Below, in pieces: positions 26,036-61,561 of a stretch of DNA of 64,000 nt. The translations under genes and the position numbers were made by a program. The notes beneath the pieces are model-generated. The model was not told the origin of the DNA. It did not search any database and saw only the letters and a list, made by a program, of their open reading frames with translations. Within the stretch, counting starts at the first letter, position 1. Every line of letters begins with the position of its first letter. The stretch comes from a virus. The DNA lies in IMG/VR virus record IMGVR_UViG_3300036853_000417, positions 1 to 64,000 of that record, one strand, 5' to 3'.

Positions 26036-26838
26036 GTACTACAGTTGTTACCCATAAAACGATTCCGCTTTCACTCATTGATACGCACGCTCGTAATTAT
26101 CGCAAGCATCCTCCTGCACAATTAGAGAGGCTGCGTGCCTCGCTTATCCGATTCTCGCAGGTGCGTTCTATCGTCGTGCAGGCAAAAGAAGGTGGTCGCT
26201 ACAGGATACTGGCAGGGCATGGAGTTGCATCGGCTGCACTTGAATGTGGAATTCTCAAGCTGCATTGTAACGTTGTTCCTGACAACTGGGATGAGGGGAC
26301 CTGTAATGCATATCTTGTTGCTGATAATGAGGTTGAACGAGGGGTGGATCTTGATAATCAACTTTTAGCTGAATTGCTGAAAGAGCAGGTGGATGCTGGA
26401 TACTCGCTAGATGCATTAGGTATTCAAGAGAAAGAATTTACTGATCTTTTGCAAATACTCCAGGAATCTGATCGTGCTGTCCCGTCTTTTGCTGAACTTG
26501 AAGAAGAGGAGGAGGATGTACGACAGTCGATGACCCTTCCTCAAGGGAGAACTGCCGATATTGTGAACTCTAAGAATATCAATCAAAAAGGAGATGGTGT
26601 TGCATTCGGGAGAGATCCAAAGCAATGGTTGCAGCAGTATGAAACAACTATGCTACGACAGATAGTTCTCATCTATAAAAGCGATGAATATACACGTGTT
26701 TTAACCCAATTTATGGCTATTCGTCGCCAAAATAATCTGGAAACAAATGCCGATGTTGTAGGAGAACTTCTTTCATTTTATTTAAAGAGTCATCCAGAAC
26801 TTGAAGAGGAGGCAAAGCAATATGCCTCTTCAGTCTGA
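26032..26838 (+). CDS. Second ParB-like protein of the cassette, 268 aa
   Basis: ParB N-domain pattern again: IDTHARNYRKHPPAQLERLRASL, IVVQAKEGGRYRILAGHGVASAALECG, NAYLVADNEVERG. The C-terminal 120 residues have an acidic linker (LEEEEEDVR) and a helical end unlike the first copy. Only moderately similar to the copy at 23672, so not a recent duplication. Coupled to the genes on both sides. Confidence 0.8.
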   Translation: MSTTVVTHKTIPLSLIDTHARNYRKHPPAQLERLRASLIRFSQVRSIVVQAKEGGRYRILAGHGVASAALECGILKLHCNVVPDNWDEGTCNAYLVADNEVERGVDLDNQLLAELLKEQVDAGYSLDALGIQEKEFTDLLQILQESDRAVPSFAELEEEEEDVRQSMTLPQGRTADIVNSKNINQKGDGVAFGRDPKQWLQQYETTMLRQIVLIYKSDEYTRVLTQFMAIRRQNNLETNADVVGELLSFYLKSHPELEEEAKQYASSV

Positions 26839-27676
26839 GCCAAGAGTCATCACTCGACCAAGACGTGAGCTTGATCTCAAGTCATATCGTTTTCGGAGAG
26901 CAGAGATACGTGACTATACAGAATTGTTGACCTCTTCCACTATTTTGCGAGATGAAGCTAGTGGAAGAGTGCGTGTTGTTTATCTCGTATTATCTGATGA
27001 TTGTAATGAGATTGTCCAGTCACTGCGCTCTATTCAATTTGAAATAGATGAGCGTGCATCAGGAATGCTTTCTCAATCTCGGATATTTGGATATCGTCCA
27101 AGAATTACCATTCGAGATGATTTTTGTACGACTGCTGCTCTTGCTCGCGAGCATCCTTTTGCCTACAAACTTATTTCTTCCTATGCAGCAAAGGTTTCAG
27201 ATTACTACCATCAGTTCAATCCTGAGTTGTTTATAGAACATCAACGGATAGTAGGTCGTGTGCTTCCTGAATGGAGGCTGGAGGGATCGGTTTTTACCTC
27301 TGGAATTATTAATAAGAATAATCCTTTGCCTTATCACTTTGATCAAGGAAATTTTCAGGATGTTTGGAGTAATATGCTTGTTTTCAAGCACCAAATAGGA
27401 GAGGGGTATCTTTCTGTTCCTGAATATGACATTGGTTTTGAGGTAGCACATAATTCTCTTCTGATGTTTGATGGGCAAAACATTCTACACGGAGTAACAC
27501 CTATTTATTTAGAAGGACCTGAAGCTTTTCGTTATTCCATCGTTTACTATAGCTTAAAATCAATGTGGAATTGTCTGTCTCCCGATGAAGAGGTGAGGCG
27601 TATTCAACGTTTGCGTACCTCTCGTGAAGAAAAAAGATTTTTCAAATATCTTCCACCAAAGGAGATGCCAGAATGA
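26822..27676 (+). CDS. TET/JBP-family 2-oxoglutarate/Fe(II) dioxygenase, 284 aa
   Basis: ATG at 26822 behind GAGGAGGC. The double-stranded beta-helix core carries PYHFDQGNF (iron ligands H172 and D174), then SLLMFDGQNILHGVTP (distal His, H223) and FRYSIVYYS (2OG-binding R237). This is the TET/JBP layout. The enzyme would hydroxylate 5-methylcytosine or thymine in DNA, giving the hydroxymethyl group that the cassette then decorates. Length suits phage TETs, which lack vertebrate extensions. No C5-methyltransferase is in the window. Confidence 0.8.
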   Translation: MPLQSEPRVITRPRRELDLKSYRFRRAEIRDYTELLTSSTILRDEASGRVRVVYLVLSDDCNEIVQSLRSIQFEIDERASGMLSQSRIFGYRPRITIRDDFCTTAALAREHPFAYKLISSYAAKVSDYYHQFNPELFIEHQRIVGRVLPEWRLEGSVFTSGIINKNNPLPYHFDQGNFQDVWSNMLVFKHQIGEGYLSVPEYDIGFEVAHNSLLMFDGQNILHGVTPIYLEGPEAFRYSIVYYSLKSMWNCLSPDEEVRRIQRLRTSREEKRFFKYLPPKEMPE

Positions 27677-28569
27677 TCATGTCTGCAAAGGTATTTGAGG
27701 ATTTTGCATTCTTCTGTCAGCATCAACTTGTGAGTAAAGATGTTGATCCCGTCTATCCATTGTTGCGGTTGCTGGTATCTCCTCTCTTGGAGGAGCAGGC
27801 ACTCTGGCACACACTCCTCTATGTTGGATATTACTCTCTCCCTTCATCTCGTGCCGCTTTTGATCGTGTTCCCAGTGTTGATGCACTTCCCTTGTCCCTG
27901 TCACGTTTACCAACTGGGGTAGAGCGAAGAGGATTTCGTGGAGGAACCATTACCAGGCATGTTGATAGCTTGCTTTATTTGCACGAGACATTTGGAAGTT
28001 TGAAAGCATGGCTCTGTCAGGAATTTGGGAGAGACATACGACAGAACTGGATTCATTTACAAAATACCCTGCAGCAGGCATGGGGGAATGGACGGTGGGC
28101 TGCTTATAAGACCGGAGAAATTTTACAGAAAGTCCATGATTTTCCAGTGCAGCCAACAGATATGGGACATGAGTTTTCAACGGGTCCTCGTCATGGTCTT
28201 GCCCTTTTCTATGGGAATGCTTGGGGGAATGCTCCTGATGCTATTCAAACACTGAATGCTCAGGGAGAAAATCTCCTACAGTGTCTTGCAGAACAAGGGA
28301 TACACATGGGCATAGAGCAGTTAGAGACAATGCTCTGTGATTTTTATTCCCTGGTAGGGGGACGCTATTATGTTGGTCATGATATTGATATGCTACAGAC
28401 ACAATTACTTGCCTCCTCTCTTTCATCAGATATCCTTGAACCTATCTGGCAAGCAAGAAAAAGAGCATTACCACACGCATATCTGGGAGAAATACAAGGC
28501 TGGACAGGAATTGATAGGGAGCGGAAAAAAGTGTATCAAAGAACAGGAAGGGTGATTATTCGTGGCTAA
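27673..28569 (+). CDS. AADT / AGPT-pyrophosphorylase-like helical protein, 298 aa
   Basis: Helical protein with a middle section LLYLHETFGSLKAWLCQEF and GNGRWAAYKTGEILQKVH, similar in look to the glycosylase-fold family called amino-acid:DNA transferase or alpha-glutamyl/putrescinyl-thymine pyrophosphorylase in phage hypermodification clusters. These join an amino compound to an activated base. Start codon overlaps the TET stop. Recognition rests on context plus short motifs, so the call is tentative. Confidence 0.5.
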   Translation: MIMSAKVFEDFAFFCQHQLVSKDVDPVYPLLRLLVSPLLEEQALWHTLLYVGYYSLPSSRAAFDRVPSVDALPLSLSRLPTGVERRGFRGGTITRHVDSLLYLHETFGSLKAWLCQEFGRDIRQNWIHLQNTLQQAWGNGRWAAYKTGEILQKVHDFPVQPTDMGHEFSTGPRHGLALFYGNAWGNAPDAIQTLNAQGENLLQCLAEQGIHMGIEQLETMLCDFYSLVGGRYYVGHDIDMLQTQLLASSLSSDILEPIWQARKRALPHAYLGEIQGWTGIDRERKKVYQRTGRVIIRG

Positions 28570-35173: not shown

Positions 35174-35933
35174 GTTTTTCAAATCTATCTATGTATTGCG
35201 CTTCTTTGCCCCATATAGAGCGATGACAAGATACACACAATGTTATTCCATTAGTAATATCAAGAATACGTTCAGGACATTCTCTGACTGGATGTATGTG
35301 ATGTGCTTGTATGTCTCCATTGCTAGGCTTATTGCACATTTGGCAGGTATAATTATCACGTTCATATACAGATTTGCGCCAGTCTTTGTACTCAAATTGA
35401 CCATGAATAATAGCTCGATATTTAGTAATTCCTCCATTTTTCCAATTAGGATGAAGATGTTGACGATATTTTCCTTTAAGGCTGCTAGAAATCTTTTTAC
35501 GGGTAGTATCAGCAAGCTTGGCCCCGTATCGTGGGGAATTCTCTCCTATACGGCTTTTTGCATAATCACTCAATTCTTGTTTACGTTGAGCAGACAAGGG
35601 AATACCCTTGTTCCAACCAGCACATTTTTCAGTTTTATCTCGAATTGGAATTTCGTATTCATGCAACAATTTACTAATACTACTTTCAGACGAACCCAGT
35701 TGACGCCATATAGTATCTATACTCAATTCCTGATTTACATACAGTTCATGCAATTGTTCTTTACTAGATGCCACAGGACGTTGTGCAAGATGCCTGTCAC
35801 GAATGGGAATATCATATTTTCTCAACCAATTACTAATAGTTTGGCTAGAATTGACTCCTACAAGTGCAGCAATTTCAACTGTGGTCAAATTTTCAGTAAC
35901 ATACAAATTATACAAAGTGTCTTTGTCCAGCAT
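35148..35933 (-). CDS. HNH homing endonuclease inserted antisense in the methyltransferase gene, 261 aa
   Basis: Two N-terminal helix-turn-helix repeats (LTTVEIAALVGV...; LSIDTIWRQLGS...), a NUMOD3-like stretch (GENSPRYGAKLADTTRKKIS, HPNWKNGG), then the HNH nuclease: RDNYTCQMC, IQAHHIHPV, ITLCVSCHRS. All Cys and His of the motif are present. It has its own ribosome site (AGGAGCC). The gene sits exactly between the two halves of the methyltransferase, as expected of a mobile homing gene. Confidence 0.85.
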   Translation of the reverse strand: MLDKDTLYNLYVTENLTTVEIAALVGVNSSQTISNWLRKYDIPIRDRHLAQRPVASSKEQLHELYVNQELSIDTIWRQLGSSESSISKLLHEYEIPIRDKTEKCAGWNKGIPLSAQRKQELSDYAKSRIGENSPRYGAKLADTTRKKISSSLKGKYRQHLHPNWKNGGITKYRAIIHGQFEYKDWRKSVYERDNYTCQMCNKPSNGDIQAHHIHPVRECPERILDITNGITLCVSCHRSIWGKEAQYIDRFEKLIHVHPPN

Positions 35934-35946
35934 GGGAGGCTCCTTT

Positions 35947-36981
35947 ATGCAGTACCATAACTTTCCTAATTATAACACAACAGAAGAAATTATACAAGTT
36001 ACTGTATATGGAAGAACGTTAAATCTTATCAGACGTAATGGGAGATTTGTGAAACCTATTGAACTAAAAGAACTAGAAGGGAATGGGACTGGGATGAAGC
36101 CCTCTCATGAAGTATGGTGGCTGGCGCGTGCTCCTCTTTCAGAATCTACTGTAGCTGCTAATGTCCTAAAACATGGTACTGGTGCACTCAATATTGATGC
36201 CAGTCGAGTCTCATATGTGAGTGAGAAAGATGGACAACCTAAAGATTATAGCAATAGCAAAGGGATAGGAACCTATCAGGAAAGTTGTAAAGAACAGGGT
36301 GCCCGCAAATACGCAGATGGTTTTTCTTATCTTAAAAATAACTTTGTTGCACAGACTCCTGCCAATGGTCGATGGCCTGCTAATCTTCTGTTTTCTCACA
36401 CTTTATTTTGTACTGAGGAGCAATGTACAGAAGATTGTCCGATAGTGCTACTAGATAAACAGAGCGGGGTGAGGAAAAGCGTAAGAAGCCTAAGAGGCGG
36501 TGTGAAGCTCACCGGGACAACGTATAGCCCTCGATTTAAGCAAGAAATCAGCGAATATGAATGTGGCTACAATGATCAAGGTGGAGCTTCCCGTTTCTTT
36601 CAGCAATTTTACTACTGCCCTAAAGCTTCACAATCTGAAAGAGAATCAGGTTGCGAACATCTTTCTGAGCACAATGGATTTGATAAAAACACCAGTAAGC
36701 AGATAGCGCACATCAATCACGAAACAGGGAATACGACCTATTCAGAGTATTCCCCAAGTGTGCGTAAAAATAATCATCCAACGGTAAAGCCTGTAAATCT
36801 TTTGAAGTATCTTATCAGGATGATTACGCCTCCTGGTGGAACAGTTCTTGACATGTTTGCAGGAAGTGGGAGTACTGGGCTGGCAGCAATACAGGATGGA
36901 TGTACCTTTATTCTCATTGAAAAAGAGATTGAGTATGTAGAGATTGCACGTGCAAGGATAGCCGCTATCCAGAATGGATGA
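35947..36981 (+). CDS. DNA methyltransferase, C-terminal part of a split gene, 344 aa
   Basis: The ATG at 35947 has GGGAGG in front, so this half can be translated by itself. It contains GTGMKPSHEVWWLARAPLS and KHGTGALNIDASRV, normally found after the SKAxE region of the upstream half, and ends with the SAM motif LDMFAGSGSTGLAAI. The middle holds CTEEQCTEDCP. Together with 34736-35173 this makes one complete phage amino-methyltransferase. Confidence 0.8.
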   Translation: MQYHNFPNYNTTEEIIQVTVYGRTLNLIRRNGRFVKPIELKELEGNGTGMKPSHEVWWLARAPLSESTVAANVLKHGTGALNIDASRVSYVSEKDGQPKDYSNSKGIGTYQESCKEQGARKYADGFSYLKNNFVAQTPANGRWPANLLFSHTLFCTEEQCTEDCPIVLLDKQSGVRKSVRSLRGGVKLTGTTYSPRFKQEISEYECGYNDQGGASRFFQQFYYCPKASQSERESGCEHLSEHNGFDKNTSKQIAHINHETGNTTYSEYSPSVRKNNHPTVKPVNLLKYLIRMITPPGGTVLDMFAGSGSTGLAAIQDGCTFILIEKEIEYVEIARARIAAIQNG

Positions 36982-45696: not shown

Positions 45697-45843
45697 TTTC
45701 CACCTGCATTCTCCTGGGAAATGTTACTCAAAATTGATTATCACCTTCATTATACCTCTTAAAGACTTTCCTTGGAGGGTATTCTAAAGATAGAACATAT
45801 TCTCATATTATCGGGGGAGCAGCGATGAAAAATATCTGCTTTT

Positions 45844-45917
45844 GGATCTTTAGCTCAGAAGGTGAGAGCGTAGTCCTGATAAGGCTGAGGTCCCTGGTTC
45901 GAGTCCAGGAAGATCCA
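45844..45917 (+). tRNA. tRNA-Ile (anticodon GAU)
   Basis: Complete cloverleaf: acceptor GGATCTT/AAGATCC, D stem GCTC/GAGC, anticodon loop CTGATAA, T arm CCTGG-TTCGAGT-CCAGG, discriminator A. CCA is not encoded. It lies alone in a phage region, so it is probably virus-encoded rather than a host rRNA-linked copy. Confidence 0.92.
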
Positions 45918-45927
45918 TTATTCATAC

Positions 45928-48738: not shown

Positions 48739-49950
48739 ATGGACACATTCCAAAAAACATATAGTCCACATGATTCACAGTACAAAGCCAATAGAATGCA
48801 TATCCTGCGTGAGCTGAGCACGCAATCGGATACTGCGCTCAAACAGCAACTGGACTACCTGGAAACACAACCTCCTCCAGCTGACGAACAAAATGAAGCG
48901 GTGCGCATGTTCCACAATATTCGCACGCTCAGACTTCCACAACGCATTAAAGGCATACTTGATAGTACATCAGGGACGACCGGAAGTGTCATCATCAGGC
49001 AGGACCTTGAACCCATTATTCACCTGCTCTTTGTCAGGAAATTCCCATTATGGGAGGCAATACAAAAAGCTCAGTCAAATGGGTTGGTTCATGCGTATGA
49101 ACAAATGACTGCTCCCGATGCTGGCGCACTTGGCAGTTCACTCATTGCAGAACTTGGTCCTGCTCAATACGACCATAGTGTGATGGTCCGACAAACGACG
49201 CCTATCAGCGTTTTTGCGCAGGGGAGAGGCGTTTCATTTAAAGAGCAGGCTGCGGTGGAGGCTGGCGGAATGAACTTCAAACCGCTTTCTATTGAGATGA
49301 GCGGTGCTGTTACCAGGCTCGCAACTGATATTCAGTTTTACATGTTTCAGGGAAATTTCGGTAACTCCAGCATAACATCTACCGCACTTGAAGGGGGTAA
49401 CTATAACGCTCTTGCCTTTGATGGGTTCAGGGGCGTCATGGGGTCCGTTGGCAATTTTAGTGCCAATAATGCAACACAGGTTGATATTGGGACGCTCAAT
49501 ATCACAGAATCACTCAAGTTTACAGCGGCCAAGATTGCTGATAATGGTGGAATGCCTGACATGGTTGTGATGGGCATGCTCGCGAAAGATGCGCTCGAAA
49601 CTGAGAATATGGGCAATCAACGCTGGAATGATAACCTCCCTGAAATCGTTCCTGGCGTGCGCGTCAACACGGTCAACTGGTCCAATGGTCAACTCAAGCT
49701 GTTACCAGTGCCCGGCAACACCATTGGGAAGTATAACCGAACATCAGACAGTGCGCTGGTTGAGGATCTCTATGTCTTCGACTCATCCAAGATCATTCTC
49801 CGCTGGCTTTACTCCGAGACGATGACTGTTCTTGAAATTCCTTCAGGGGTTGATAGTCAACTGAGTAACAGAATTATCGCCTTTTACATGTATGGCATGG
49901 AACAGGCTGCTCCTGTCTTCTCAGGTAAAGCGAGACGGTTAGCAAGTTAA
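48739..49950 (+). CDS. Major capsid protein (HK97 fold), 403 aa
   Basis: Acidic/helical N-terminal arm (residues 1-65), then TTGSVIIRQDLEPIIHLLFVRKFPLWEAI, a pattern typical of HK97-like capsid proteins of this type, a long middle with EMSGAVTRLATDIQFYMF, MPDMVVMGMLAKDALE and a C-terminal GMEQAAPVFSGKARR. Longest protein in the right place after protease and followed by decoration and connector genes. Preceded by its own promoter and long leader, as expected for a highly expressed gene. Confidence 0.85.
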   Translation: MDTFQKTYSPHDSQYKANRMHILRELSTQSDTALKQQLDYLETQPPPADEQNEAVRMFHNIRTLRLPQRIKGILDSTSGTTGSVIIRQDLEPIIHLLFVRKFPLWEAIQKAQSNGLVHAYEQMTAPDAGALGSSLIAELGPAQYDHSVMVRQTTPISVFAQGRGVSFKEQAAVEAGGMNFKPLSIEMSGAVTRLATDIQFYMFQGNFGNSSITSTALEGGNYNALAFDGFRGVMGSVGNFSANNATQVDIGTLNITESLKFTAAKIADNGGMPDMVVMGMLAKDALETENMGNQRWNDNLPEIVPGVRVNTVNWSNGQLKLLPVPGNTIGKYNRTSDSALVEDLYVFDSSKIILRWLYSETMTVLEIPSGVDSQLSNRIIAFYMYGMEQAAPVFSGKARRLAS

Positions 49951-50420: not shown

Positions 50421-51101
50421 ATGGCACGATTTTCACGCGTTATTGGACGCAATAGAGATATTCCACAATTTGCCTCCTATCAGGGTGCCGCAGCAGCAGG
50501 TGGGACAGCAGCAGACTTTGAGCGTCCAATTGTTGCGCTCACTGATCTGACACTCAATGCTCCATCTGGGTCAGTAGGAAGTATTGTCAGTAATGCAATG
50601 TCAGCGCGAGCATGCATATTGACATTCATGGCTGCAATTACGGGAGATAATACCAATAATTGCGCCTTTAGTTTTGTTCAGTATCGCAGTGGCGCAATCC
50701 TGGTCAACACGACATCAGCCACAACCATTACTGCCGGAACAAGAACTGTTACCCCTACAAGCATGACAAATCTCTATAATGGTCAGCAGCTTATCTTTAG
50801 TGGTGGTACAGGTGCTACCGAAACCGTTGTCATTTACAATCTTACCCCAACAACCTTTCAAGCAACCTTTGCAAACGGGCATAGCGGAGCCTACGCGATC
50901 ACATCAGCTCCTTTAGCTTCAACAACCTTCCAAACCGGAGTGAATGCCTCAGCCATTGTTCCGATTCAGTTTGCCAGCGCTATCAACTACATTAAAGGCG
51001 GAGATGTAATCACTATCAAGCGTGTGAGTAATAATGTAACAGGCCTTGCAACACCTGCATTTGATGCAAGGATTGACTGGGTTCCTGCAGGTCTTGGTTA
51101 G
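50421..51101 (+). CDS. Structural protein, Thr/Ala/Gly-rich, 226 aa
   Basis: ATG at 50421 after GGAGAAGAG. Beta-strand repeats with TT, NTTS and GGTGA turns are typical of decoration or fibre proteins. No enzyme motif. Between capsid and tail genes, so capsid decoration is a fair guess. Confidence 0.65.
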   Translation: MARFSRVIGRNRDIPQFASYQGAAAAGGTAADFERPIVALTDLTLNAPSGSVGSIVSNAMSARACILTFMAAITGDNTNNCAFSFVQYRSGAILVNTTSATTITAGTRTVTPTSMTNLYNGQQLIFSGGTGATETVVIYNLTPTTFQATFANGHSGAYAITSAPLASTTFQTGVNASAIVPIQFASAINYIKGGDVITIKRVSNNVTGLATPAFDARIDWVPAGLG

Positions 51102-51111
51102 AGGTATGGAC

Positions 51112-51828
51112 ATGGCTGACTTTACGACGATAAGATCCATGTGGAATAGCAACACTGATGCAGCTCCTACATGGAATGCTGTTACATTTGGAGGATCATC
51201 AGGTCAACAGGAAATCAGGTGGTGTGCTACCAGTGCAGGTTCTGCTACGATAGGTTCTGCTGCATGGCCGCAATACGCGAGGCCAGCCAGCCCCGGTGCA
51301 GTACCAGAACTCTGGTACTTTACGTCTTCCGATAACTCAGGAGGGGTCAAAGTCGGAACCTATGATGGGGACAATGGACAGGCCAACGTCGCATGTATCG
51401 ACTATGACAACCTTGGGACATTTGCCACCGCTCCCACGCTCACTGCATACAGTTCCTCTGCACACAATGCACCAGTTGCAGGCACACAACCGGGAGCCGA
51501 GGCAGGATCTCCAATTATCAATGGACATGCAACCGATACCAGCTCGACTTCCTACCTCAAAATTAATCTCTATGGGGATGATCAGACGGGCAATCCAACG
51601 GCAGGCGCTGTTGGAAGCATGCCATCAGCTACCACAGGCACGGCAGGTAGTGTGTCTCCTGGCGCTGCTGCATGGTTAGCTACGTGGCAGTCAGCGCAGG
51701 GAGCCGTCCAATTCATCACCCATCGCAGGACACCTGCCGCAACTACAGCAGGAAAGATCTTTTTTGTACTTATTCTGTTTACGGGGCCGAATATGAGCCT
51801 TAGTTTAGCCAGGGCCTTCAAGGAGTAA
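51112..51828 (+). CDS. Structural protein, 238 aa, next to a group I intron
   Basis: ATG at 51112 with TTAGAGG at good distance; an ATG at 51106 is too close. Ser/Thr/Ala/Gly-rich, beta-type virion protein ending MSLSLARAFKE. The stop lies 13 nt before the P3 strand of a group I intron core, so the true C-terminus may be made by splicing. Confidence 0.65.
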   Translation: MADFTTIRSMWNSNTDAAPTWNAVTFGGSSGQQEIRWCATSAGSATIGSAAWPQYARPASPGAVPELWYFTSSDNSGGVKVGTYDGDNGQANVACIDYDNLGTFATAPTLTAYSSSAHNAPVAGTQPGAEAGSPIINGHATDTSSTSYLKINLYGDDQTGNPTAGAVGSMPSATTGTAGSVSPGAAAWLATWQSAQGAVQFITHRRTPAATTAGKIFFVLILFTGPNMSLSLARAFKE

Positions 51829-52080
51829 TCCTTGTTGAAAACCTCTCTGGGAACGGTGAAAGCCCCAATCATTGAATGGGTAACGCCGTGGCAAGCAGGG
51901 CAATGAAGCCTGTGCAGCCGTAGAGATCAAGTGAGAGGCTCCATACAATTGTGTATGGATGATGCCATGATCCGACCCTTGCAGGAATGTAAGGAGGCCA
52001 GCAGAAATGACTGACCCCACTCATAAGAGTGAGTAACAAGATAGTGGTACACTAACACCCGTAATCACATTTACCTATAG
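51820..52080 (+). ncRNA. Group I intron core
   Basis: The full catalytic core can be drawn: P3 CCTCTC (51842) with GAGAGG (51933); P4 ACGG/CCGT with P5 inside (GCCC/GGGT) and the conserved TAACGCCGTGGCAAGC; P6 CAGG/CCTG; P7 GATCA (51925) with TGATC (51968); P8 CCATAC/GTATGG; P9 CCTTGCA-GGAA-TGTAAGG. A CAAGG/CCTTG hairpin at about 51819-51834 may be P1. Layout resembles the Azoarcus tRNA-Ile intron. Exact ends and splice sites are not resolved. An antisense HNH gene follows. Confidence 0.75.
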
Positions 52081-52101
52081 TTATGTGTAGTAATGTACAT
52101 T

Positions 52102-53331
52102 CTAATAGTTGATGCCACGACGATCAAAGGGCGTAAGGTCTTCAAGTCTACGATTTGACTTTCTGGCATTACATTCACGATGTGTAGGTTTGATATTGTC
52201 CTCTGTGTGGGTTCCCTGTGGATCACCTGCACGAGGGACGAGAGGCACAATATGATCGAATGTCAAAGTATGGTGAAGCAAAATAGGTTTATCGCACAGG
52301 TAACAATGTCTTCCATCGCGTTTAAGGATATGAGTAAAGTCTACCTTATCTACGATGACTGCCCCCTTTTTACGAGCAAGACGTTGAAGTTGATATCCTT
52401 GTGTGCGAAGTCTATTGTTGTGCCTCCATACTCGATGTTTTGCCCTAATCGAAGCCATATGCAGAGCATCATGACGACGACTATCATTGTATATACGCCT
52501 CTCTTCAAGCCGTTCATGATGATATATGCCCACACACTTTTTGCAGATCGCATAATGTCCATCACGTCGGTTCCTGTCCAAAGAAAACTCACTCAAGAAC
52601 TTTTCAAGAGAACATTGTGGGCATACCTTGGCTCGTACCTTACGCGGAGGCGGAATCATCTGTCGCTGTTTGAGGATGCGAGTCTGACGCTTTACAGCAT
52701 TGCGTGCTCTTCTTCTTGCTCTGTGCTCATCAGTATTGTGGCGAGCACGATCATAGGTGCGAAGGCGATCACTGTTAGCGGATCTATAGGCATTATTATA
52801 TGTCCTTTTCTCGAATTTCTTTTCAGGAGAGGCATGATAGCGCTCACTCTTACATTGCTTGCAACGACCTGCATAGCCATCCTTTTGAGCAATGTCATGC
52901 ATAAATGCACTATGAGGTTTTTCTATCAGGCATGTGTTACACACCTTGTGTCCTTCAAGAGTGGCCTTTGGAAGAACAGGTGTCTTGCGAATACGTCGCA
53001 ATTGATTGCGCTCTCTGTCCCTTGCATGTTCACAGGTAATACAAGTGGCTGTAGGCTTGCCATTCCGAAAATGAAAGTCAATATATGGCTTCTCCTGCTT
53101 ACAAGCATTGCAAAATCGGTAGCCCTCTTTAGTCGATTTCAATTGAGATTTATTACGTGGGTTATACCGAGGATTCGGCAGCACATAGGGGCGTCTACGT
53201 GCTCGATCTCGTTCCCGTGTGCAATCAATACAGTAACTAGAGGGTCTATCCTTATGTATCTTGAATTGACCAAAAGGTTTTTCAATCTCGCACGATGCGC
53301 AAACTTTGAAAGTAGGATACAATGGGTCCAT
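52102..53331 (-). CDS. HNH endonuclease with four zinc-finger repeats, 409 aa
   Basis: Four Cys4 units of the type CxxCxxEKPFxxF...CxxC start at about residues 11, 73, 131 and 240, separated by very basic linkers. The C-terminal HNH motif is RDGRHCYLCDKP, LTFDHIVPLVPRAG, DNIKPTHRECNARKS. The fingers would read DNA and the HNH cut it. Lies antisense beside the group I intron, which it may mobilise. No RuvC domain, so not IscB. Confidence 0.88.
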   Translation of the reverse strand: MDPLYPTFKVCASCEIEKPFGQFKIHKDRPSSYCIDCTRERDRARRRPYVLPNPRYNPRNKSQLKSTKEGYRFCNACKQEKPYIDFHFRNGKPTATCITCEHARDRERNQLRRIRKTPVLPKATLEGHKVCNTCLIEKPHSAFMHDIAQKDGYAGRCKQCKSERYHASPEKKFEKRTYNNAYRSANSDRLRTYDRARHNTDEHRARRRARNAVKRQTRILKQRQMIPPPRKVRAKVCPQCSLEKFLSEFSLDRNRRDGHYAICKKCVGIYHHERLEERRIYNDSRRHDALHMASIRAKHRVWRHNNRLRTQGYQLQRLARKKGAVIVDKVDFTHILKRDGRHCYLCDKPILLHHTLTFDHIVPLVPRAGDPQGTHTEDNIKPTHRECNARKSNRRLEDLTPFDRRGINY

Positions 53332-53357
53332 AGCTATGAGTCCTCAAATTCTAGCTT

Positions 53358-53392
53358 AGGTACAAAGAGTGTCGTAAGCACTCTTTGTACCT
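53358..53392. repeat. Inverted repeat upstream of the HNH gene
   Basis: AGGTACAAAGAGTG and its exact complement (53379-53392), 7-nt loop. No T-run on the HNH side. Lies between the tRNA-Ile(UAU) and the HNH start; operator or processing hairpin. Confidence 0.6.
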
Positions 53393-53464
53393 CAAAAAAT
53401 CCACCCTCATTATACCACAAAACCGCTCCACAAGCCAGTTTATGTCTTTTTTGCGTATCAAAAA

Positions 53465-53538
53465 TAGCCCCAATTGGAGTTGAACCAATGCCTCCCATTT
53501 ATAAGATAGGTGCACTTAACCACATGTGCTTTGGGGCT
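53465..53538 (-). tRNA. tRNA-Ile (anticodon UAU)
   Basis: On the minus strand: acceptor AGCCCCA/TGGGGCT, bases 8-9 AA, D stem GCAC/GTGC, anticodon stem CCTAT/ATGGG with loop CTTATAA, T arm ATTGG-TTCAACT-CCAAT, discriminator A. Position 8 is A instead of U and the variable loop is 4 nt, both slightly unusual. UAU reads AUA, the codon most bacteria read with a lysidine-modified CAU tRNA. Confidence 0.82.
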
Positions 53539-53672
53539 ATGCGTTCACTATTGCTTCCTGCCAAAAAAACCGTGTCGTCGGTAGTAAGAAATCGCCAATC
53601 GAACACGTGTCACAAAATCAGCAAAAAATGTTCTCATGCATTCAATCTCCTTTCAGAAAGGAGTATAGCACA

Positions 53673-54185
53673 ATGGGCATAGCTACATCTCTCTATGCCG
53701 TTGGAGATGCGATAGATCCCTCCCTCTCCTACTGGAGTGTCCTTTTGACGACTGGCAAAACATGGTCAGAACGTCAACTTGTACCAACGTGGACAAAGGG
53801 CCAGAGGGGATTGCGCAAGCTTGATTGGGGAGAGGATTTAGTAAGCACCGGGGATATCCACCGTATAAAAGAAATCACACTCCATTGTCCTGATGGAGGA
53901 ACGGCAGTCCTGGAAGTCCCTGAGCGGAGTACCGCGTTTCAATTTAAGACACGCAGCCTCAATATGCTTGGCGCAAGTGGCAATGACCTGGAATTTCAGG
54001 TTATTGGTCGTGTGGTTGACAAGACAACAGGACGATGTGAGTGCTTTATCTGGGATTACCGACCACTCCCAGGAGAGAAAAATCTCATAGCGTATAAATC
54101 GAGTATATACAACTTTGGTGCATGGAGAAACACTATCACACCTATTGGTGCACTAGGTATTGAAGTACAGGGTTTCCGTTTATGA
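53673..54185 (+). CDS. Structural/tail-associated protein, 170 aa
   Basis: ATG at 53673 after GAAAGGAG. Beta-rich (ITLHCPDGGTAVLEVPERSTAFQFKTRSL), with FIWDYRPLPGEKN. No family recognised. Resumes the late plus-strand operon after the intron/HNH/tRNA insert. Confidence 0.6.
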   Translation: MGIATSLYAVGDAIDPSLSYWSVLLTTGKTWSERQLVPTWTKGQRGLRKLDWGEDLVSTGDIHRIKEITLHCPDGGTAVLEVPERSTAFQFKTRSLNMLGASGNDLEFQVIGRVVDKTTGRCECFIWDYRPLPGEKNLIAYKSSIYNFGAWRNTITPIGALGIEVQGFRL

Positions 54186-54324
54186 GATAAGAAATGATTC
54201 ATGTCATGGCATTTGGCTAAACACCTGCTGGCTCGGTTTTGAGCGACACACAAACAGCAGTAACGACATCAAAATTTATCCATGTATTCCTCATTTTTGA
54301 GGATAGTATAACACAGGAGGAGCA

Positions 54325-54741
54325 ATGTCAGGAAAGTCGGCATATCTAGAGGATAAATTGCTAAACTGGCTCAAGGGAACGGCGTTTGGAACTGCACCAA
54401 CTACCGTTTATGTCGCTCTTCTGACAACGAACCCAGCCTCAGATGACGGTACGGGTGCTGTTGAAGTGAGCGGCGGGTCCTATGCACGTGTAGCTATCAC
54501 CACATCGTCAGGTTGGTCAGCTATTAGTGGATCAGGCACAAGTCCGCACCAAATCAGCAATAGCGGCGTGGTGACGTTTGTTACGCCCACGGCCTCATGG
54601 GGGGATATCATAGGCATAGCTATCTATGATGCTAGTACAGCAGGCAACTTACTCTATTGGAATAGTATAACATTGCAAACAATAAACAGCGGAGTTATTG
54701 CTTCGTTTGCGATTGGTGCTTTAGTCGTAACCGACAATTGA
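54325..54741 (+). CDS. Tail-fibre-like virion protein, 138 aa
   Basis: AGGAGGAG before the ATG. The start SAYLEDKLLNWLKGTAFGTAPTTVYVALLT...PASDDGTG and the end GDIIGIAIYDASTAGNLLYW match a common phage fibre/tail domain (LEN.LL..L.G....AP..VYVALYT). Trimeric beta structure is likely. Confidence 0.75.
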   Translation: MSGKSAYLEDKLLNWLKGTAFGTAPTTVYVALLTTNPASDDGTGAVEVSGGSYARVAITTSSGWSAISGSGTSPHQISNSGVVTFVTPTASWGDIIGIAIYDASTAGNLLYWNSITLQTINSGVIASFAIGALVVTDN

Positions 54742-54776
54742 CGGTTAATTAGTGCATTAACTGTAAAGGAGATATC

Positions 54777-55667
54777 ATGCCTTTAACACCAGGAATAGCT
54801 GACGTACTGCAACCAATGGCAGCACCTACCGTTGTACAGAATGCAACAGGCGCGGGTGCGGCTATTACATATAACATTGTCGCTGTAAATGGAGCAGGCG
54901 CGGACGGCGCTCCTAGCCCGTCGTTTGTGACAGGTGCCAATAACGCAGCGACTGCCAACAATACGATAAGTTGGGTAGCCATTCCAGGGGCATTTGCATA
55001 CCGTGTGCTCAAGAATGGAGCACTCTTAGTAACAGTAGGACCTGGGGTCACTTCATACACAGACAGCGCAGGCGCGGCGGGCGCTGCGTACACGGCGTCC
55101 GTTGTCAACCCATCGGCTCCAGCGCTTGTTGCCAATTCTCTATTGGATGGTGGCAAACCAACATATTCAGCGGCGAAACAAGGTCTGGTACCAGTTGCTA
55201 CACCTACCGATGTGTGGACGATTATCGGTAGTGCCTCAAAGATTGTTCGCGTATTGCGTATTGAGATTGTCGTCACATCTACCGCTGCAACAGGCGCGGC
55301 TATTGATGTTTTGTTACTCAGGAGAAGTACAGCAGACACGGGTGGGACCTCATCGACTACAGCATTTATTCCTCATGATAGCCTTGATCCGGCTGCAACC
55401 GCTGTCTTCACGACCTACACAGCGAATCCAACACTTGGGTCAATTATTGGTGTTGCACTTAGAGCGACAAAGATCATGCCTACTCTTGCCACAAGTACAG
55501 CTACAGACTTTCCACTGCCTGATAGGGCTTCCTGGGACTTTGGTAGCCGTCCAGGTAAGGGAATTGTGCTTAGAGGAGCTGCTGATACACTGGCAATTAA
55601 CTTGAACTCAGTGTCATTAGCGGCGGGTGCTTCTATGAATATCGCATGCGAAATTACAGAGGAATAG
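54777..55667 (+). CDS. Virion protein with Ig/FN3-like domain, 296 aa
   Basis: AAAGGAGATATC before the ATG. Residues 15-110 look like an FN3 domain (TYNIVAVNGAGADGAPSP, WVAIPGAFAYRVLKNGALL). The rest is a Ser/Thr/Ala-rich beta region. Its start context (AGGAGATATC...ATGCCTTTA) is nearly the same as at 56840, a sign of local duplication of 5' ends. Adhesion role likely. Confidence 0.7.
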   Translation: MPLTPGIADVLQPMAAPTVVQNATGAGAAITYNIVAVNGAGADGAPSPSFVTGANNAATANNTISWVAIPGAFAYRVLKNGALLVTVGPGVTSYTDSAGAAGAAYTASVVNPSAPALVANSLLDGGKPTYSAAKQGLVPVATPTDVWTIIGSASKIVRVLRIEIVVTSTAATGAAIDVLLLRRSTADTGGTSSTTAFIPHDSLDPAATAVFTTYTANPTLGSIIGVALRATKIMPTLATSTATDFPLPDRASWDFGSRPGKGIVLRGAADTLAINLNSVSLAAGASMNIACEITEE

Positions 55668-55670
55668 ACC

Positions 55671-56828
55671 ATGGGATTTAGCAATCCACAACCAAATGAC
55701 TCTGCTACTGTTCCAATAAGTTCGGAGTACTCACCACAAAATAATACCTTCCCAGCCATGCAAGGTGCTGACGGGGCCTATGTCGATGCGTATGGGAATG
55801 CATCAACCGCTCCCGTCACGTCCTTTATACAGCCTAGAGTTGTTCAGAGAGGCATTGCGCAAACGGGCGCGGGAGCGAAAAGTCTTTCTTATACGTTTCC
55901 TAATCCTGTCATGGGCGGGAACTCTATTGTCGTTTGCTTAGGTGTGGGCGATATGGAGGACTCGGTTACTAGCTTTGTAGTGGCTGACTCGGCAGGGAAC
56001 ATCTATACCAAGGTGACATCACAACCGCAAGGAAGCACGCTTGAGGCCGCTATCTATCTCACAACTGGCATTAAATCAGGACTTGGTTCAAATCCAGATC
56101 TGCTACCTGTGACAAGTCCAGTTCTCAATACGGTCACGATTAAGATCACAGGTCCTACTGCTGTTCCTACTGGCATTTCGATGAAGGTGTATGAAATCTG
56201 GGGAACTATTGCCTCATTGGATGCGCTTGATCAAGTAGATATGGGTAGTGGAGCTAGTGGATTGATAGCATCAACTTCAGTGGTTACACCGCAAGTCCCC
56301 AACACGATAGCATTTACAGCTCTTGCCGTAGGGAGAATAACAACTATCACACCAATGGTTGGATATTCAACAAATGACGGCACACTATTCCCTTGGGGTG
56401 GGAACTTAGGTGCTTTTGATAGTCAGTACCGTGCGCTCTCAACCATTGCAACGGTTACACCACAAGCAAACTTGTCACTTTCTAGCGCGTGGGCTATGTG
56501 TAGCGCAACGTTTAGGACAATTGTGTTACCAGTAGAGGGAACATTTAATTATGCTCCCGCTACAAATGCTCCAATGACAACAGTAAATGCGTCATTATCT
56601 CCTGTACAGTTACTTGCAGCAAACGGAGTGCGTAAAGGCGTTAGTGTGTTTGGAGGTTCAACAGCTATATTGTTTGTGGCATATGGTGTTATTACAGCAA
56701 AAACAGCATACGTAACGCAAGTGCCACCCGGGGCTCTTTGGGAAATGCCGTTGCCAATTTATCCAGGTCCAATTTATGGATGGTGGTCTGCTGTCAATGG
56801 CAGCGCGAACATAACCGAACTTTCCTAG
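55671..56828 (+). CDS. Virion (tail/fibre) protein, 385 aa
   Basis: Three nt after the previous stop. Repeated beta segments: SYTFPNPVMGGNSIVVCLGVGD, SFVVADSAGNIYTKV, AIYLTTGIKSG, typical of phage surface proteins that carry a jelly-roll unit. The C-terminal 90 residues resemble receptor-exposed domains. No enzymatic motif. Confidence 0.7.
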   Translation: MGFSNPQPNDSATVPISSEYSPQNNTFPAMQGADGAYVDAYGNASTAPVTSFIQPRVVQRGIAQTGAGAKSLSYTFPNPVMGGNSIVVCLGVGDMEDSVTSFVVADSAGNIYTKVTSQPQGSTLEAAIYLTTGIKSGLGSNPDLLPVTSPVLNTVTIKITGPTAVPTGISMKVYEIWGTIASLDALDQVDMGSGASGLIASTSVVTPQVPNTIAFTALAVGRITTITPMVGYSTNDGTLFPWGGNLGAFDSQYRALSTIATVTPQANLSLSSAWAMCSATFRTIVLPVEGTFNYAPATNAPMTTVNASLSPVQLLAANGVRKGVSVFGGSTAILFVAYGVITAKTAYVTQVPPGALWEMPLPIYPGPIYGWWSAVNGSANITELS

Positions 56829-56839
56829 GAGATATCATA

Positions 56840-58123
56840 ATGCCTTTATATCCATCAAATCAATTCATACCTAATGTAGTTGTGCCTGCTACTCCACCTC
56901 CTGACATTGATACGCCGTTGCCTATTTCAGGTCCATATTACTATTTGCCGACTGACTGGGACGCAGCATGGAAAGCTGCGAAATCTGCTGTTGGAAGCCA
57001 ACGTATAAGCGTGGTCGGGATTGGAGATAGCGATACAGCCGGGGAAGGGGCGTCGGATATCGTGACGACGGCCTGGTGGCCCAGACTTCGCTCAGCTCTC
57101 CTCTCGGCCAATGGCAACCGACTTGGAGGAGATCACTTTGGAGTTCTCTATACTCCTGCTGTGAACCTTCCAAAATCCTCGACGCCGCTCACAATGGGTG
57201 GCACAATCAATACTGATTGGACAGCGTACTATAACTCATTTAATAACGTTATTTTTAACAATAATGCACAAACGCCACTGTGGACCTGTGCGCCAGCCTA
57301 TAATGTCGTCGGTTTCGATATCCTCTATCAGGATTTCCAGGCAGGAAGCTGGACCTACAACGTGGACGGAGGAAGCAATACGACCGTTACTGTCACCAAT
57401 AACGGCACATATGCAACTGCACAGGTCAAAAAGATAAGCATTACAGGTCTCACATCGGGCCTGCATACTCTTCATATCAATTCGTCTTCCACTACAAATT
57501 CCTGCACTATTCTTGGCATTACCGCGTATGCCAGCACGAGCGGCATCTGTTTTGCAAATAACGGGTGGCAAGGATTGGGGCTAGTAAACGGGGATGTGTA
57601 TAACAATGCGCTCCTCGACACATCGCTTACGCCAGTTGATCGATTGGCAATGTATCAGGGGTACACAGGCATCCCATCAGCGCCAACAGCATTATCGGGT
57701 TTGGGCTTTCCTGCTCAGCCGGATCTCGCTATCGTTGCGCTTGGGATCAATGATGCTATTGCCTCAGTCAGTCGTGCAGATTTTCGCAATGGGTTAGAGC
57801 GACTCATCTGGTCGTTGCGATACGGCAAAAACGATGCTTGCAGCATTATCATTGTCGCTATGTACTGCCCAGATGGGACGCTGACAAACTCCTCAACTAC
57901 CGTTGCAAATATGGATTACACCAATGCGGCATATGTCGCTTATCGTGATATCAAAGCTGCCATGCTTGAATGCGCACAGGCAAATAACTGTGCATTTGTA
58001 GATGTGCATAGCGCGTTTGGCAGGCAGCCGATTGCAAATGGGTGGGTTACCAGCGCAAGCAATCTGCATCCAACAGATGCAGGACATTTGAAGATTGCTA
58101 CTCTGTTGGGTGCGCTTGTGTAG
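56840..58123 (+). CDS. SGNH/GDSL hydrolase in the tail module, 427 aa
   Basis: ATG at 56840 after AGGAGATATCATA. Motifs: VVGIGDSDTAGEG (block I; the nucleophile position reads GDSD, Ser present), LAIVALGINDAI (block III, GxND) and NLHPTDAGH (block V, DxxH-type). A beta-sandwich insert lies at about 130-240. Such enzymes on tails deacetylate host polysaccharides. Secreted-type linkers but no signal peptide, fitting a virion protein. Confidence 0.82.
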   Translation: MPLYPSNQFIPNVVVPATPPPDIDTPLPISGPYYYLPTDWDAAWKAAKSAVGSQRISVVGIGDSDTAGEGASDIVTTAWWPRLRSALLSANGNRLGGDHFGVLYTPAVNLPKSSTPLTMGGTINTDWTAYYNSFNNVIFNNNAQTPLWTCAPAYNVVGFDILYQDFQAGSWTYNVDGGSNTTVTVTNNGTYATAQVKKISITGLTSGLHTLHINSSSTTNSCTILGITAYASTSGICFANNGWQGLGLVNGDVYNNALLDTSLTPVDRLAMYQGYTGIPSAPTALSGLGFPAQPDLAIVALGINDAIASVSRADFRNGLERLIWSLRYGKNDACSIIIVAMYCPDGTLTNSSTTVANMDYTNAAYVAYRDIKAAMLECAQANNCAFVDVHSAFGRQPIANGWVTSASNLHPTDAGHLKIATLLGALV

Positions 58124-58134
58124 AAGAGGTGTAA

Positions 58135-60264
58135 ATGGCAGTATTATATAAGCCTAGAGCATTTGGCGGTGCGGTTCCATATGAATCTCAGGCAGTGTCT
58201 CTTGCAGGCACGCTTGCAGGCACAGGTACGCTTGTACCTGTATTGTCGGCTTCTACTGCTCTCTCAGCAGAATTCGATGGAATTGGCACTTTAACAGGAA
58301 CGCTCTCAGCTAATCAATTAAAAGATATTGCTACACGTTTACGATTAGCTCTTTTTAAAGATATTGCCTCTCGATTACGTTTGGTGTCAGCTATTCAATT
58401 AAAAGATATTGCTACACGTCTAAGATTAATATCCACATTGCAATTCAAGGATATTATAACACGTCTAAGACTGATATCTGCATTACAGAGCAAGGACATT
58501 CCTTCACGTCTGAGATTGATATCTTCTAACCAATTAAAAGATATTGTTTCTCGATTCCGTTTGGCTATTTTCAAAGATACTACTGCTCGATTACGTTTAA
58601 TGTCTGCTAATCAATTAAAAGATATTGTCACCCGTTTCTCTCTCATAGGGAGTGTCCAGATACAGGGTATTATGACCCGGTTGAGATTGATATCAGCCTC
58701 ACAACTCAAGGATGTAGCTATTCGTCTGCGTTTGATGTCAGCAAATCAGATCAAAGACATCATATCCAGATTGCGCCTGATGTCTTCCTCGCAATTGAAG
58801 GATGTTATTTCTAGATTGCGTCTGAGAAGTGCAAATCAGATCAAGGACCTCATCACACGTCTGCGTTTAGCATTCTTTAAAGACATTGTTTCCAGACTTC
58901 GTTTAATGAGTGCCTCGCAACTAAAGAATGTAGCTCTTCGATTGCACCTGATGTCTGCTCCTCAGGTAAAGGATGCCGTAACACGTTTAAGACTGCGATC
59001 AATTAATCAATTCAAAGATATAGACACACGTTTGCGCCTGGCACTCTTTAAAGATATTTCTGCCAGATTGCGCGTAATGAGCTTGAGTCAGCTCAAAGAT
59101 ATCACTTCCAGACTTCGCTTAATATCTGCCAGCCAGCTGAAAGACATTGTTTCCAGATTGCGCTTGATATCAGGGAGTCAGCGCAAGGATGTGTCATCAC
59201 GTCTACGACTGGCACTCTTTAAAGACATTGTTGCACGTTTGCGCCTGATGTCTGCCAGTCAGATCAAAGATGTCGCTCTTCGGCTACGTCTGATATCTGC
59301 CAGCCAGCTCAAAGACATTATTTCCAGATTGCGCTTAAAATCAGCAAATCAGCTCAAGGATATCAATACACGTCTACGATTAGCGCTCTTTAAAGATATT
59401 GCGGCCAGACTGCGCTTGATGAGTGCCAAACAGTTTAAGGATGTTTCAACACGATTTATCCAGGTTGTGCCAGGGCAACAAATCAAGGATCTTATCACAC
59501 GTATGCGACTCATGAGTGCTAATCAACGCAAGGACATTCCTGCTCGCATGTGTTTGGCACTCTTTAAAGACATTGTTTCCAGATTGCACTTGATATCAGC
59601 TAGTCAACTCAAGGATGTAGAAACGCGTCTGAGAATAATGTCCACTCCTCAGATAAAGGATGCTCTAACCAGGATTCGATTGCGATCTGCTAATCAGTTC
59701 AATGACATCGACACACGTCTACGGTTAGCACTCTTTAAAGACATCGCTTCCAGGCTTCGTTTGATGAGTGCTGAACAGATCAAGGATACCACGACTCGCC
59801 TGAGAATGAGGAGTGCTAACCAGCTTGAGGACATCGTTTCAAGGCTCAGTCTAATGTCTGCTAGCCAGCTCAAGGATGTCACTTCCAGGCTTCACTTAAT
59901 GTCTGCCAGTCAGTTCAAGGATGTCGTATCCAGACTGCGCCTGATGTCAGCTATCCAGTTCAGGGATATGTCCATTCGTTTGCGCCTGATGTCAGCTTTA
60001 CAACAAAATGACCTCGATACCCGTTTGCAATTAATGTCAGCAAGACAATTATGTGATATCAATGTACGTCTTCTCCTAACATATGCTATTCAATTAAAAG
60101 ATATTACATCAAGACTGATTCTTATTTATGATGCGGATCAATATCACGATATTCCTTGTCGCTTTATTTTAACGACAATAGTGGATGGGACTTTCTATGT
60201 ACGTAGTGGTAACATTACGTCATATGTACGTAGTGGTGATATTAACATGTATGTAAGGAGCTAA
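58135..60264 (+). CDS. Highly repetitive protein: 43 units of a 13-15-residue KDI-x-x-RLRL repeat, 709 aa
   Basis: Residues 1-60 are a normal Ala/Gly/Thr-rich lead. From residue 61 to about 670 the chain is made of units of the form QLKDI-xx-RLRLMSAS. Most are 15 residues; a 13-residue form ending LAL or LAF is always followed by a 14-residue form starting FKDI. Those doublets recur every four units from about residue 235, giving a 57-residue super-repeat. The end has YVRSG repeats. The pattern predicts a regular solenoid or long fibre. Lies between the hydrolase and a BppU-like gene. Family unknown to me. Confidence 0.75.
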   Translation: MAVLYKPRAFGGAVPYESQAVSLAGTLAGTGTLVPVLSASTALSAEFDGIGTLTGTLSANQLKDIATRLRLALFKDIASRLRLVSAIQLKDIATRLRLISTLQFKDIITRLRLISALQSKDIPSRLRLISSNQLKDIVSRFRLAIFKDTTARLRLMSANQLKDIVTRFSLIGSVQIQGIMTRLRLISASQLKDVAIRLRLMSANQIKDIISRLRLMSSSQLKDVISRLRLRSANQIKDLITRLRLAFFKDIVSRLRLMSASQLKNVALRLHLMSAPQVKDAVTRLRLRSINQFKDIDTRLRLALFKDISARLRVMSLSQLKDITSRLRLISASQLKDIVSRLRLISGSQRKDVSSRLRLALFKDIVARLRLMSASQIKDVALRLRLISASQLKDIISRLRLKSANQLKDINTRLRLALFKDIAARLRLMSAKQFKDVSTRFIQVVPGQQIKDLITRMRLMSANQRKDIPARMCLALFKDIVSRLHLISASQLKDVETRLRIMSTPQIKDALTRIRLRSANQFNDIDTRLRLALFKDIASRLRLMSAEQIKDTTTRLRMRSANQLEDIVSRLSLMSASQLKDVTSRLHLMSASQFKDVVSRLRLMSAIQFRDMSIRLRLMSALQQNDLDTRLQLMSARQLCDINVRLLLTYAIQLKDITSRLILIYDADQYHDIPCRFILTTIVDGTFYVRSGNITSYVRSGDINMYVRS
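58315..60150 (+). repeat. 45-bp degenerate coding repeat tract (43 units)
   Basis: The DNA under the repeat protein repeats at about 45 bp (39 and 42 bp in the doublets) with strong third-position variation. Purifying selection on the protein rather than recent expansion is therefore likely. Confidence 0.8.
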
Positions 60265-60265
60265 T

Positions 60266-60637
60266 ATGATTGATGATTTTAGTCCCATCATGCAGGGAGA
60301 TACGGGTAATCCATTTAATGTGCAAATTCGATATACGGCTAATGGAAAACCATATCCACTTGATAATGTCACCTTTAGCATGAAAATGCAGATTATCGAA
60401 ACAATTGGAGATATTGGGAAAGTAGGTATGGTCAAGACCTGTTCAGTCAGTGGGGATGGTGCGGTGATTGTGGATGATGCTGAAAATGGTAAGTGCCATC
60501 GACAGTGGCAACCGGAGGATGTAGACATTCCTGGGAAATGGGGGATTTATCTGAAAGCAATAAGAGCGGGACGGAGCGTTACAGGGGATAATGGATTTGG
60601 CCATCCAAAAACTATTACCATTCTTCCAGCACCATAG
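60266..60637 (+). CDS. BppU-like baseplate/fibre-holder domain protein, 123 aa
   Basis: AAGGAG before the ATG. IMQGDTGNPFNVQIRYTANGKPYPLDNVTFSMKM and HRQWQPEDVDIPGKWGIYLKA match the N-terminal domain of BppU-type upper baseplate proteins that hold receptor-binding proteins. A stand-alone copy here suggests it links the repeat protein or fibres to the virion. Confidence 0.7.
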   Translation: MIDDFSPIMQGDTGNPFNVQIRYTANGKPYPLDNVTFSMKMQIIETIGDIGKVGMVKTCSVSGDGAVIVDDAENGKCHRQWQPEDVDIPGKWGIYLKAIRAGRSVTGDNGFGHPKTITILPAP

Positions 60638-60649: not shown

Positions 60650-61561
60650 ATGCCAAAATATCTCACCACACAACAATATAGAGATCTTGATGCAGGTACC
60701 AGCCTTGCTGACATCAATGACTTTACTCTGGCAAGGCTTATTGCTCGCGCTGAAACAGCAGTCGATGCTCATATGGGATTTGATCTCGCTTATGGGGGAT
60801 TTGAACCGCATCCTGTCTGGGTTCAATGCGCATATGATATGCAATCACGAAAAATAACCTATGCTGGAATTGTACCGGTACAGGTCATTAATCGCTATCG
60901 TATACAAATTTCAAATCAGGGGGATGGTTCGGGCTTTTTTGCCACTATTCGACCACAGGATTGTGTGATTAATCAGGGAGATAAATACATTGAAATTGTC
61001 CCGTTTCAAGCAATCACCTTTGATATTACTCCTTTCCTTTTTCAGTTTGGTCTTAATCCTCCTATTATGCAGATGGATAGTTTTGTCTGTTTTTATACCC
61101 CGTTCTTCAATGACGCTTTATATAACACAGGAGATAACAGGGCATATAGGGCGCTACGAGGATTCTGGGCATCAACCTATATCCAGGCAACATATTTACA
61201 ACCATTTCAGATACCACAGGTTCCTCCCATTGTGTATGTAGATGGGATTATTGCAACAGATTACACGATAGATTATACGGAAGGGGCTATCACGTTTGAT
61301 GAAGCGCAATCGGCAAATGCAAAAGTTACCGCTGATTACACAGCACAAATACCGGATACGGTGCGAGAGGCAACAATTCGTCAGGTCACGTACATTTTGG
61401 AACAGAGAGCGCTCAAAAAGACGGGAATGGGAAGCATCATGCGTGCCAGGAATGCTGATCAAGAAATACAACTCTTTTCGAAAGGGGATGGACAGATAGT
61501 TGTTCTCTGTGAAGAGGCTGCAAAATGTCTCGTAAATTATGAGGAGATTGCAATCGCATGA
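60650..61561 (+). CDS. Head-tail adaptor-like protein, 303 aa
   Basis: The start KYLTTQQYRDLDAGTSLADINDFTLARLIARAETAVDAHMGF is the helical beginning of phage head-tail adaptors (gp6/gp15-like). The remainder has a large beta insert, then a C-terminal helix (VREATIRQVTYILEQRALKK). Overlaps the next gene by 4 nt. Confidence 0.7.
   Translation: MPKYLTTQQYRDLDAGTSLADINDFTLARLIARAETAVDAHMGFDLAYGGFEPHPVWVQCAYDMQSRKITYAGIVPVQVINRYRIQISNQGDGSGFFATIRPQDCVINQGDKYIEIVPFQAITFDITPFLFQFGLNPPIMQMDSFVCFYTPFFNDALYNTGDNRAYRALRGFWASTYIQATYLQPFQIPQVPPIVYVDGIIATDYTIDYTEGAITFDEAQSANAKVTADYTAQIPDTVREATIRQVTYILEQRALKKTGMGSIMRARNADQEIQLFSKGDGQIVVLCEEAAKCLVNYEEIAIA

Follow-up and report, generated by a model that had tools for sequence, protein, structure and literature searches.

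A gene on the + strand of the 64,000-nucleotide window analysed here (positions 1 to 64,000 of the uncultured virus record IMGVR_UViG_3300036853_000417) encodes a protein of tandem R-L-R-L units that, on balance, probably forms the elongated shaft of a modular fibre, or adhesin, on the virion. This function is the most likely one because related proteins are fused to sugar-binding or esterase domains, the gene lies in the structural region, and the number of units varies among relatives. The sequences show the repeat and its super-periods, the family of relatives, their cassette and the fused domains; from these we infer virion incorporation, a fibre shape, a beta fold and a polysaccharide receptor.

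In the proposed mechanism, each unit would contribute an eight-residue core, D-[IVL]-x-[ST]-R-[LF]-R-L, with side chains alternating in and out as in a beta-strand, and the cores would be joined by linkers of 4 to 9 residues. Stacking of the units would produce a long, strongly basic rod, which the final unit and the 9-residue tail repeats that recur across members may cap or anchor. The variable N-terminal side would carry the working modules, putative ConA/LamG-type sugar-binding domains or a GDSL esterase in relatives; in the window phage the gene immediately upstream encodes the predicted esterase on its own. Held off the particle by the rod, these modules would bind and trim host surface polysaccharide before injection. 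Phage fibres that combine repeats with exchangeable lectin or esterase modules are already known as a device type.

More tentatively, a rod of stacked beta units, each of 12 to 17 residues, strongly basic and rich in arginine, may be a new fibrous architecture with an optional three- or four-unit super-period (12+15+15+15, 12+12+15, 12+12+12+14 or 12+12+14). The cassette that encodes it together with partner genes would have been placed near the tail tip, on the neck side and on the portal side in different phages, and a single adhesin system may thereby act as tail or head fibre. If the fibre-shaft reading is right, a repeat type beyond the libraries searched joins the short list of phage fibre shafts, and it follows a simple rule, a fixed core with linker length changing in few steps, with super-periods arising more than once. 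The 170-aa neighbour described below would then be a sequence handle on the adhesion modules of uncultured temperate phages, and simple tandem units with quantised lengths would be useful to fibre biophysics.

The repeat protein and its nested periods

The open reading frame at 58135-60264 is a real gene: it begins with an ATG preceded by a Shine-Dalgarno-like AGAAGAGG, and the AAGGAG of the next gene lies within its 3′ end. The product is poor in Gly (2.8%) and Pro (0.6%) and has a pI of 11.5. The gene and its parts are as follows:

58135..60264, + strand: RLRL-repeat protein gene, 709 aa, net charge +72
58135..58323, + strand: N-terminal 63 aa, upstream of 58324, with a YKPRAFGG motif noted by eye
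58324..60192, + strand: 43 tandem units, each a fixed core D-[IVL]-x-[STA]-R-L-R-L and a variable-length linker (12-, 15- and 16-residue units)
58846..59874, + strand: super-repeat tract in 57-residue cycles of 12+15+15+15 (one cycle of 58), units 13 to 36
60193..60261, + strand: C-terminal tail of ~9-residue YVRSG repeats after the final unit DIPCRF, the counterpart of the TRDG tails of relatives

Units were parsed by anchoring on D-x-x-x-R-[LIFM], which yielded exactly 43 units from residue 64 to about residue 686, as the original prediction of 43 KDI-xx-RLRL units had stated. Of the 42 spacings that can be measured, 8 are 12, 32 are 15 and 2 are 16 residues long, and the 12-residue units are numbers 1, 6, 13, 17, 21, 25, 29 and 33. 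Motifs similar to YKPRAFGG ([YF]xPRALGGT, again found by eye) stand immediately ahead of the repeats in several relatives.

From residue 238 the order 12, 15, 15, 15 occurs six times; one of these cycles reads 12, 15, 16, 15 and spans 58 residues because of its one 16-residue unit. The 12-residue units fall every four units more often than expected by chance (permutation p = 0.0002; p = 0.001 with another statistic). The 57-residue super-repeat of the original prediction is thus real in its period but not in its proposed split of 13+14+15+15. The doublets it noted at units 13/14, 17/18, 21/22, 25/26, 29/30 and 33/34 were rightly placed, though each is 12+15 and not 13+14.

Self-identity within residues 238-575 is 0.51 at a lag of 57 and 0.70 at a lag of 229 (about four super-repeats); residues 238-345 and 467-574 are ~70% identical at this lag, pointing to an older block duplication. 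Comparison of the lag-229 blocks shows 87% identity at codon position 2 against only 46% at position 3, so that it is the protein and not the DNA that is conserved, by selection on the protein.

Super-periods of three or four units are recurrent yet optional, being present in three further lineages: 12+12+15 in L031 (p < 0.0003), 12+12+12+14 across most of the 66 units of L033 (p = 0.00025), and 12+12+14 in L044 and its close relative L043 (p = 0.001 and 0.0035, respectively), all p-values being slightly optimistic as five lags were tried per protein. The same lag test found no super-period in the remaining members, about half of the family. The earlier suggestion that nested periodicity implies a regular shape is therefore plausible, but such periodicity is not required.

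Relatives, fused domains and the gene cassette

We searched IMG/VR with a degenerate three-unit DNA pattern, which has 14 matches in the window and none in 100 shuffles, and then with a variant carrying a 12-residue step, which returned further stretches; the stretches from both patterns all translate as repeat proteins. A third pattern added no IMG/VR relatives. The 170-aa neighbour as IMG/VR query led back to these contigs and revealed one additional repeat gene (L073). Besides the window, relatives are found on 12 contigs from uncultured viruses; 7 of 12 records contain an integrase. Complete relatives have about 11 to 66 units of R-L-R-L or R-F-R-L type. Among 316 units the lengths are 15 (n = 164), 12 (n = 99), 14 (n = 32), 16 (n = 15), 17 (n = 5) and 13 residues (n = 1), with all change confined to the linker, from L8 to D1 of the following unit. 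Most members again carry the C-terminal unit and the tail repeats (TRDG, VRSG).

No convincing match to the repeat unit was found in Pfam, PHROGs, NCBIfam, PDB sequences or phage records, and the repeat is undescribed in the literature searched, whose scope excluded preprints and most subscription papers. The 170-aa and ~250-aa cassette proteins likewise match nothing in any library searched, and the repeat family with its cassette partners is new relative to these libraries. In all libraries searched the original prediction of no known family is thus borne out, although the protein is no orphan.

Several apparent matches were discarded. Pfam and PHROG E-values down to about 1e-6 are sums over repeats with no single significant stretch; the plant Pfam model BRX_N passes its cut-off in this way, with a best stretch of 11 residues. 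In tblastn searches of phage records, neither the window protein, a fragment of it, nor the repeats of L007 and L009 yielded relatives; a match in Ruminococcus phage phiRM10 is antisense, and plasmid matches at 24-29% identity reflect composition. Scanning genome contigs with the repeat pattern gave 19 stretches, none of them a relative once translated. The 170-aa profile had no match in 396 genomes of one phylum, an absence that is uninformative, and a weak match among 398 genomes of a second phylum is due to chance; both phyla were arbitrary choices.

Fusions link the family to receptor-binding and depolymerising domains. A ConA-like domain and LamG_3 (E 1e-20) precede the repeats in L039, L007 (on the same contig as L042) has a ConA-like match, and in L004 a GDSL domain (E 4e-14) lies between two repeat blocks, a position occupied in L002 and L033 by a globular domain. 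In the window this link takes the form of the separate GDSL gene. The N-terminal ConA-like domain also occurs in L004 and in the record of the window, in proteins whose genes immediately follow the tape measure. The genes around the repeat gene, and the latter tail protein, are:

48739..49950, + strand: probable major capsid protein, left of the fibre block (SU10_MCP, 23.7 bits, narrowly missing the cut-off of 24.1)
51046..51828, + strand: conserved cassette protein (about 240-260 aa; 60-88% identity to relatives), its start probably an internal Met
53673..54185, + strand: conserved 170-aa cassette protein, 44-82% identity across the family, the best cassette marker
54325..54741, + strand: GP4 gp80-like fibre/head protein (PF23140, E 6e-34; PHROG 240, head protein)
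54777..55667, + strand: cassette protein with a C-terminal part (195 aa) similar to genes of 214-223 aa in six relatives (37-44%)
56840..58123, + strand: GDSL esterase (PF13472, E 8e-15; PHROG 15881, tail protein, E 8e-20), likely ATG at 56840 after AGGAGA, mechanical ORF start at 56738
60266..60637, + strand: small protein with a weak BppU_N-like match (E 0.12)
60650..61561, + strand: connector-like gene, right of the fibre block (weak PHROG head-tail adaptor and DUF2460 matches)
record 71806-73761 (L046:9806-11761), after the tape measure: tail protein with the ConA-like domain that relatives fuse to RLRL repeats

In relatives the usual order is the ~250-aa gene, the 170-aa gene, genes of 214-223 and ~117-157 aa in some, the repeat gene, and a gene of ~110 aa that in some relatives weakly resembles BppU_N. 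A gene similar in size to 60266..60637 lies directly 3′ of the repeat gene in most of them. The 170-aa gene is present in 10 of the 11 family records searched, the exception being a 4-kb fragment. As the sole query, it located a repeat gene at most three genes away in all 10 matches with downstream sequence; the contig of one further match ends ahead of the repeat-gene position.

The position of the cassette varies. Four relatives (L004, L039, L040 and L044) place it near the tail tip, 3′ of the tape measure and hub-position genes, and in L004 and L044 a GH25 or amidase lysin follows. In L073 (3041-9096) it occupies a third position, directly after terminase and portal and before the scaffold and major head genes. 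The window cassette extends over 51046-60637, with extra genes in it (tRNA, gp80-like fibre, GDSL esterase), within the structural region and adjoining capsid genes. The repeat gene had been placed between a tail hydrolase and a baseplate-like protein; this is correct gene by gene, for the GDSL esterase and, weakly, the BppU_N-like protein, but the block as a whole lies between the probable major capsid protein and the connector-like gene, ahead of the connector and tail genes. Given these different positions, the cassette behaves as one unit that can occupy various places.

For the window phage, a head (capsid) fibre or decoration in place of a tail fibre is a possible, though not a likely, reading. 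It would fit the capsid-side location, the gp80-like fibre/head protein inside the block, and the portal-to-scaffold position in L073. The four tail-tip cassettes argue against it, and the position of a movable cassette need not tell where its protein is sited.

The alternatives to a fibre fare less well. The original prediction had offered a long fibre or a ruler; of these the fibre is the better supported, by a conserved cassette that in relatives stands at the close of the tail module and by the lectin-like and esterase fusions. A second ruler or tail-length determinant would suit a long, regular protein from the structural region, but a separate tape-measure gene is present (record 66794-70537; PHROG 167, E 8e-89) and the repeat protein matches no tape-measure profile. 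Unit number is not significantly related to tape-measure length in eight phages (Pearson r 0.46, p 0.25), although an earlier set of six had looked promising and the rank correlation is suggestive only (Spearman 0.67, p 0.07, n = 8); a tape measure of 993 aa accompanies 66 units in L033, and one of 1247 aa accompanies 43 units in the window phage. We consider a ruler most improbable. The charge of the protein and the prophage setting would also suit a basic protein that binds nucleic acid or serves in packaging, or a moron on the surface of the lysogen, but either is very unlikely given the lectin-like and GDSL fusions and the fixed place among structural genes.

Strand or helix

If the protein is a fibre, we favour a beta fold with reasonable confidence on the pattern of its residues, and a helix is the main rival. 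The hydrophobic moment of residues 2-9 of the unit is 1.0 at 180 degrees and 0.2 at 100 degrees. In full-length periodograms the 2.0-2.45 residue band exceeds the 3.4-3.85 band in 11 of 12 members, at least twofold in 10. The peak of L033 reaches 81 at exactly 2.0 residues, the in/out alternation staying in phase for ~700 residues. The bands are nearly equal in the window protein (16.9 and 14.1, respectively) and reversed in L041; a peak near 3.8 residues is notable only in these two proteins and weak elsewhere. Within-unit covariation is confined to the linker and does not discriminate between helix and strand.

Structure prediction, a check proposed with the original prediction, gave helix in both runs. 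For the full protein (13 alignment rows) AlphaFold2 returned helix at low confidence (pLDDT 50.5). For a 174-residue piece (80 rows) the best of five models is one continuous 133-residue helix at a pLDDT of ~91, the five model means ranging from 81 to 50 (71 to 50 for the other four). AlphaFold2 has been reported to be biased towards beta-solenoids on perfect repeats (PMC11795689), so that the helical output is not that bias. These models, the near-equal bands of the window protein, and the scarcity of Gly and Pro, unusual in a turn-rich beta protein, count against a beta shaft.

The fibre could instead be an alpha-helical rod, either a coiled coil or a helix-turn-helix stack, which we regard as less likely; a continuous helix of ~620 residues would be ~90 nm long. 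Beyond the AlphaFold2 models, low Gly/Pro and the 3.8-residue peaks, it would account for an S-x-x-Q pattern akin to a helix capping box. Against it, 10 of 12 members show only weak periodicity in the alpha band, and units of 12, 14, 15, 16 and 17 residues would disrupt the helical phase. Unit composition also speaks against it, with 0.3% Glu, a nearly fixed Asp at position 1, and Gly at position 9 in 42% of 12-residue units. The AlphaFold2 helix is moreover an isolated monomer with no packing by which to judge it.

Known fibrous systems resemble the RLRL protein in part. The adenovirus fibre shaft, a triple beta-spiral, is likewise an elongated attachment fibre with ~15-residue repeats whose number varies among members; the RLRL protein differs in its fixed R-L-R-L core, its units of 12 to 17 residues and its strongly basic character. 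The conserved Gly or Pro turn that is the hallmark of the triple beta-spiral is absent from the RLRL 15-residue units, common as these are, and the repeats have no Pfam or PDB sequence match to it. The phi29 head fibre, a triple repeating helix-turn-helix, is also a repetitive phage fibre and agrees with the helical AlphaFold2 result, but there is no PDB sequence match and the alternating hydrophobic pattern of the RLRL protein favours strands. The VASP tetramerisation domain, a right-handed coiled coil, shares the 15-residue period, whereas RLRL proteins have mixed units of 12/14/15/16/17 residues, often polar residues at core positions 9 and 13, and far more units. The adhesion devices of siphophages have similarly modular baseplate and fibre proteins, with sugar-binding and esterase domains and BppU-like modules akin to the BppU_N-like neighbour; they differ in that the RLRL shaft and the 170-aa and ~250-aa proteins lie outside all libraries searched.

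Prophage setting and other features

The left end of the window (1-15641) has the look of host chromosome (TerC, an HD/LuxR regulator, a CRISPR array) and is followed by an integrase (14493-15641), and the record thus probably represents an integrated prophage plus chromosomal flank. The CRISPR array (8712-9712) has 14 repeats of 37 bp and 13 spacers of 36-39 bp, of which spacers 4 and 5 are identical, as are spacers 1 and 7. The spacers had no match among the loci examined here, and one spacer had no exact IMG/VR match.

Genes for a TET-associated glycosyltransferase (PF20691) and an amino acid:DNA transferase (PF18724) at 24331-28569 suggest that the prophage DNA may be hypermodified. The prophage also encodes two N6/N4 DNA methylases (PF01555), at 21166-22770 (− strand, with a ParB_N match) and 35803-36981 (+ strand). 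Two tRNA-Ile genes lie at 53464-53539 (− strand) and 45843-45918 (+ strand), with anticodons TAT and GAT, respectively; the former overlaps + strand ORFs immediately upstream of the 170-aa cassette gene.
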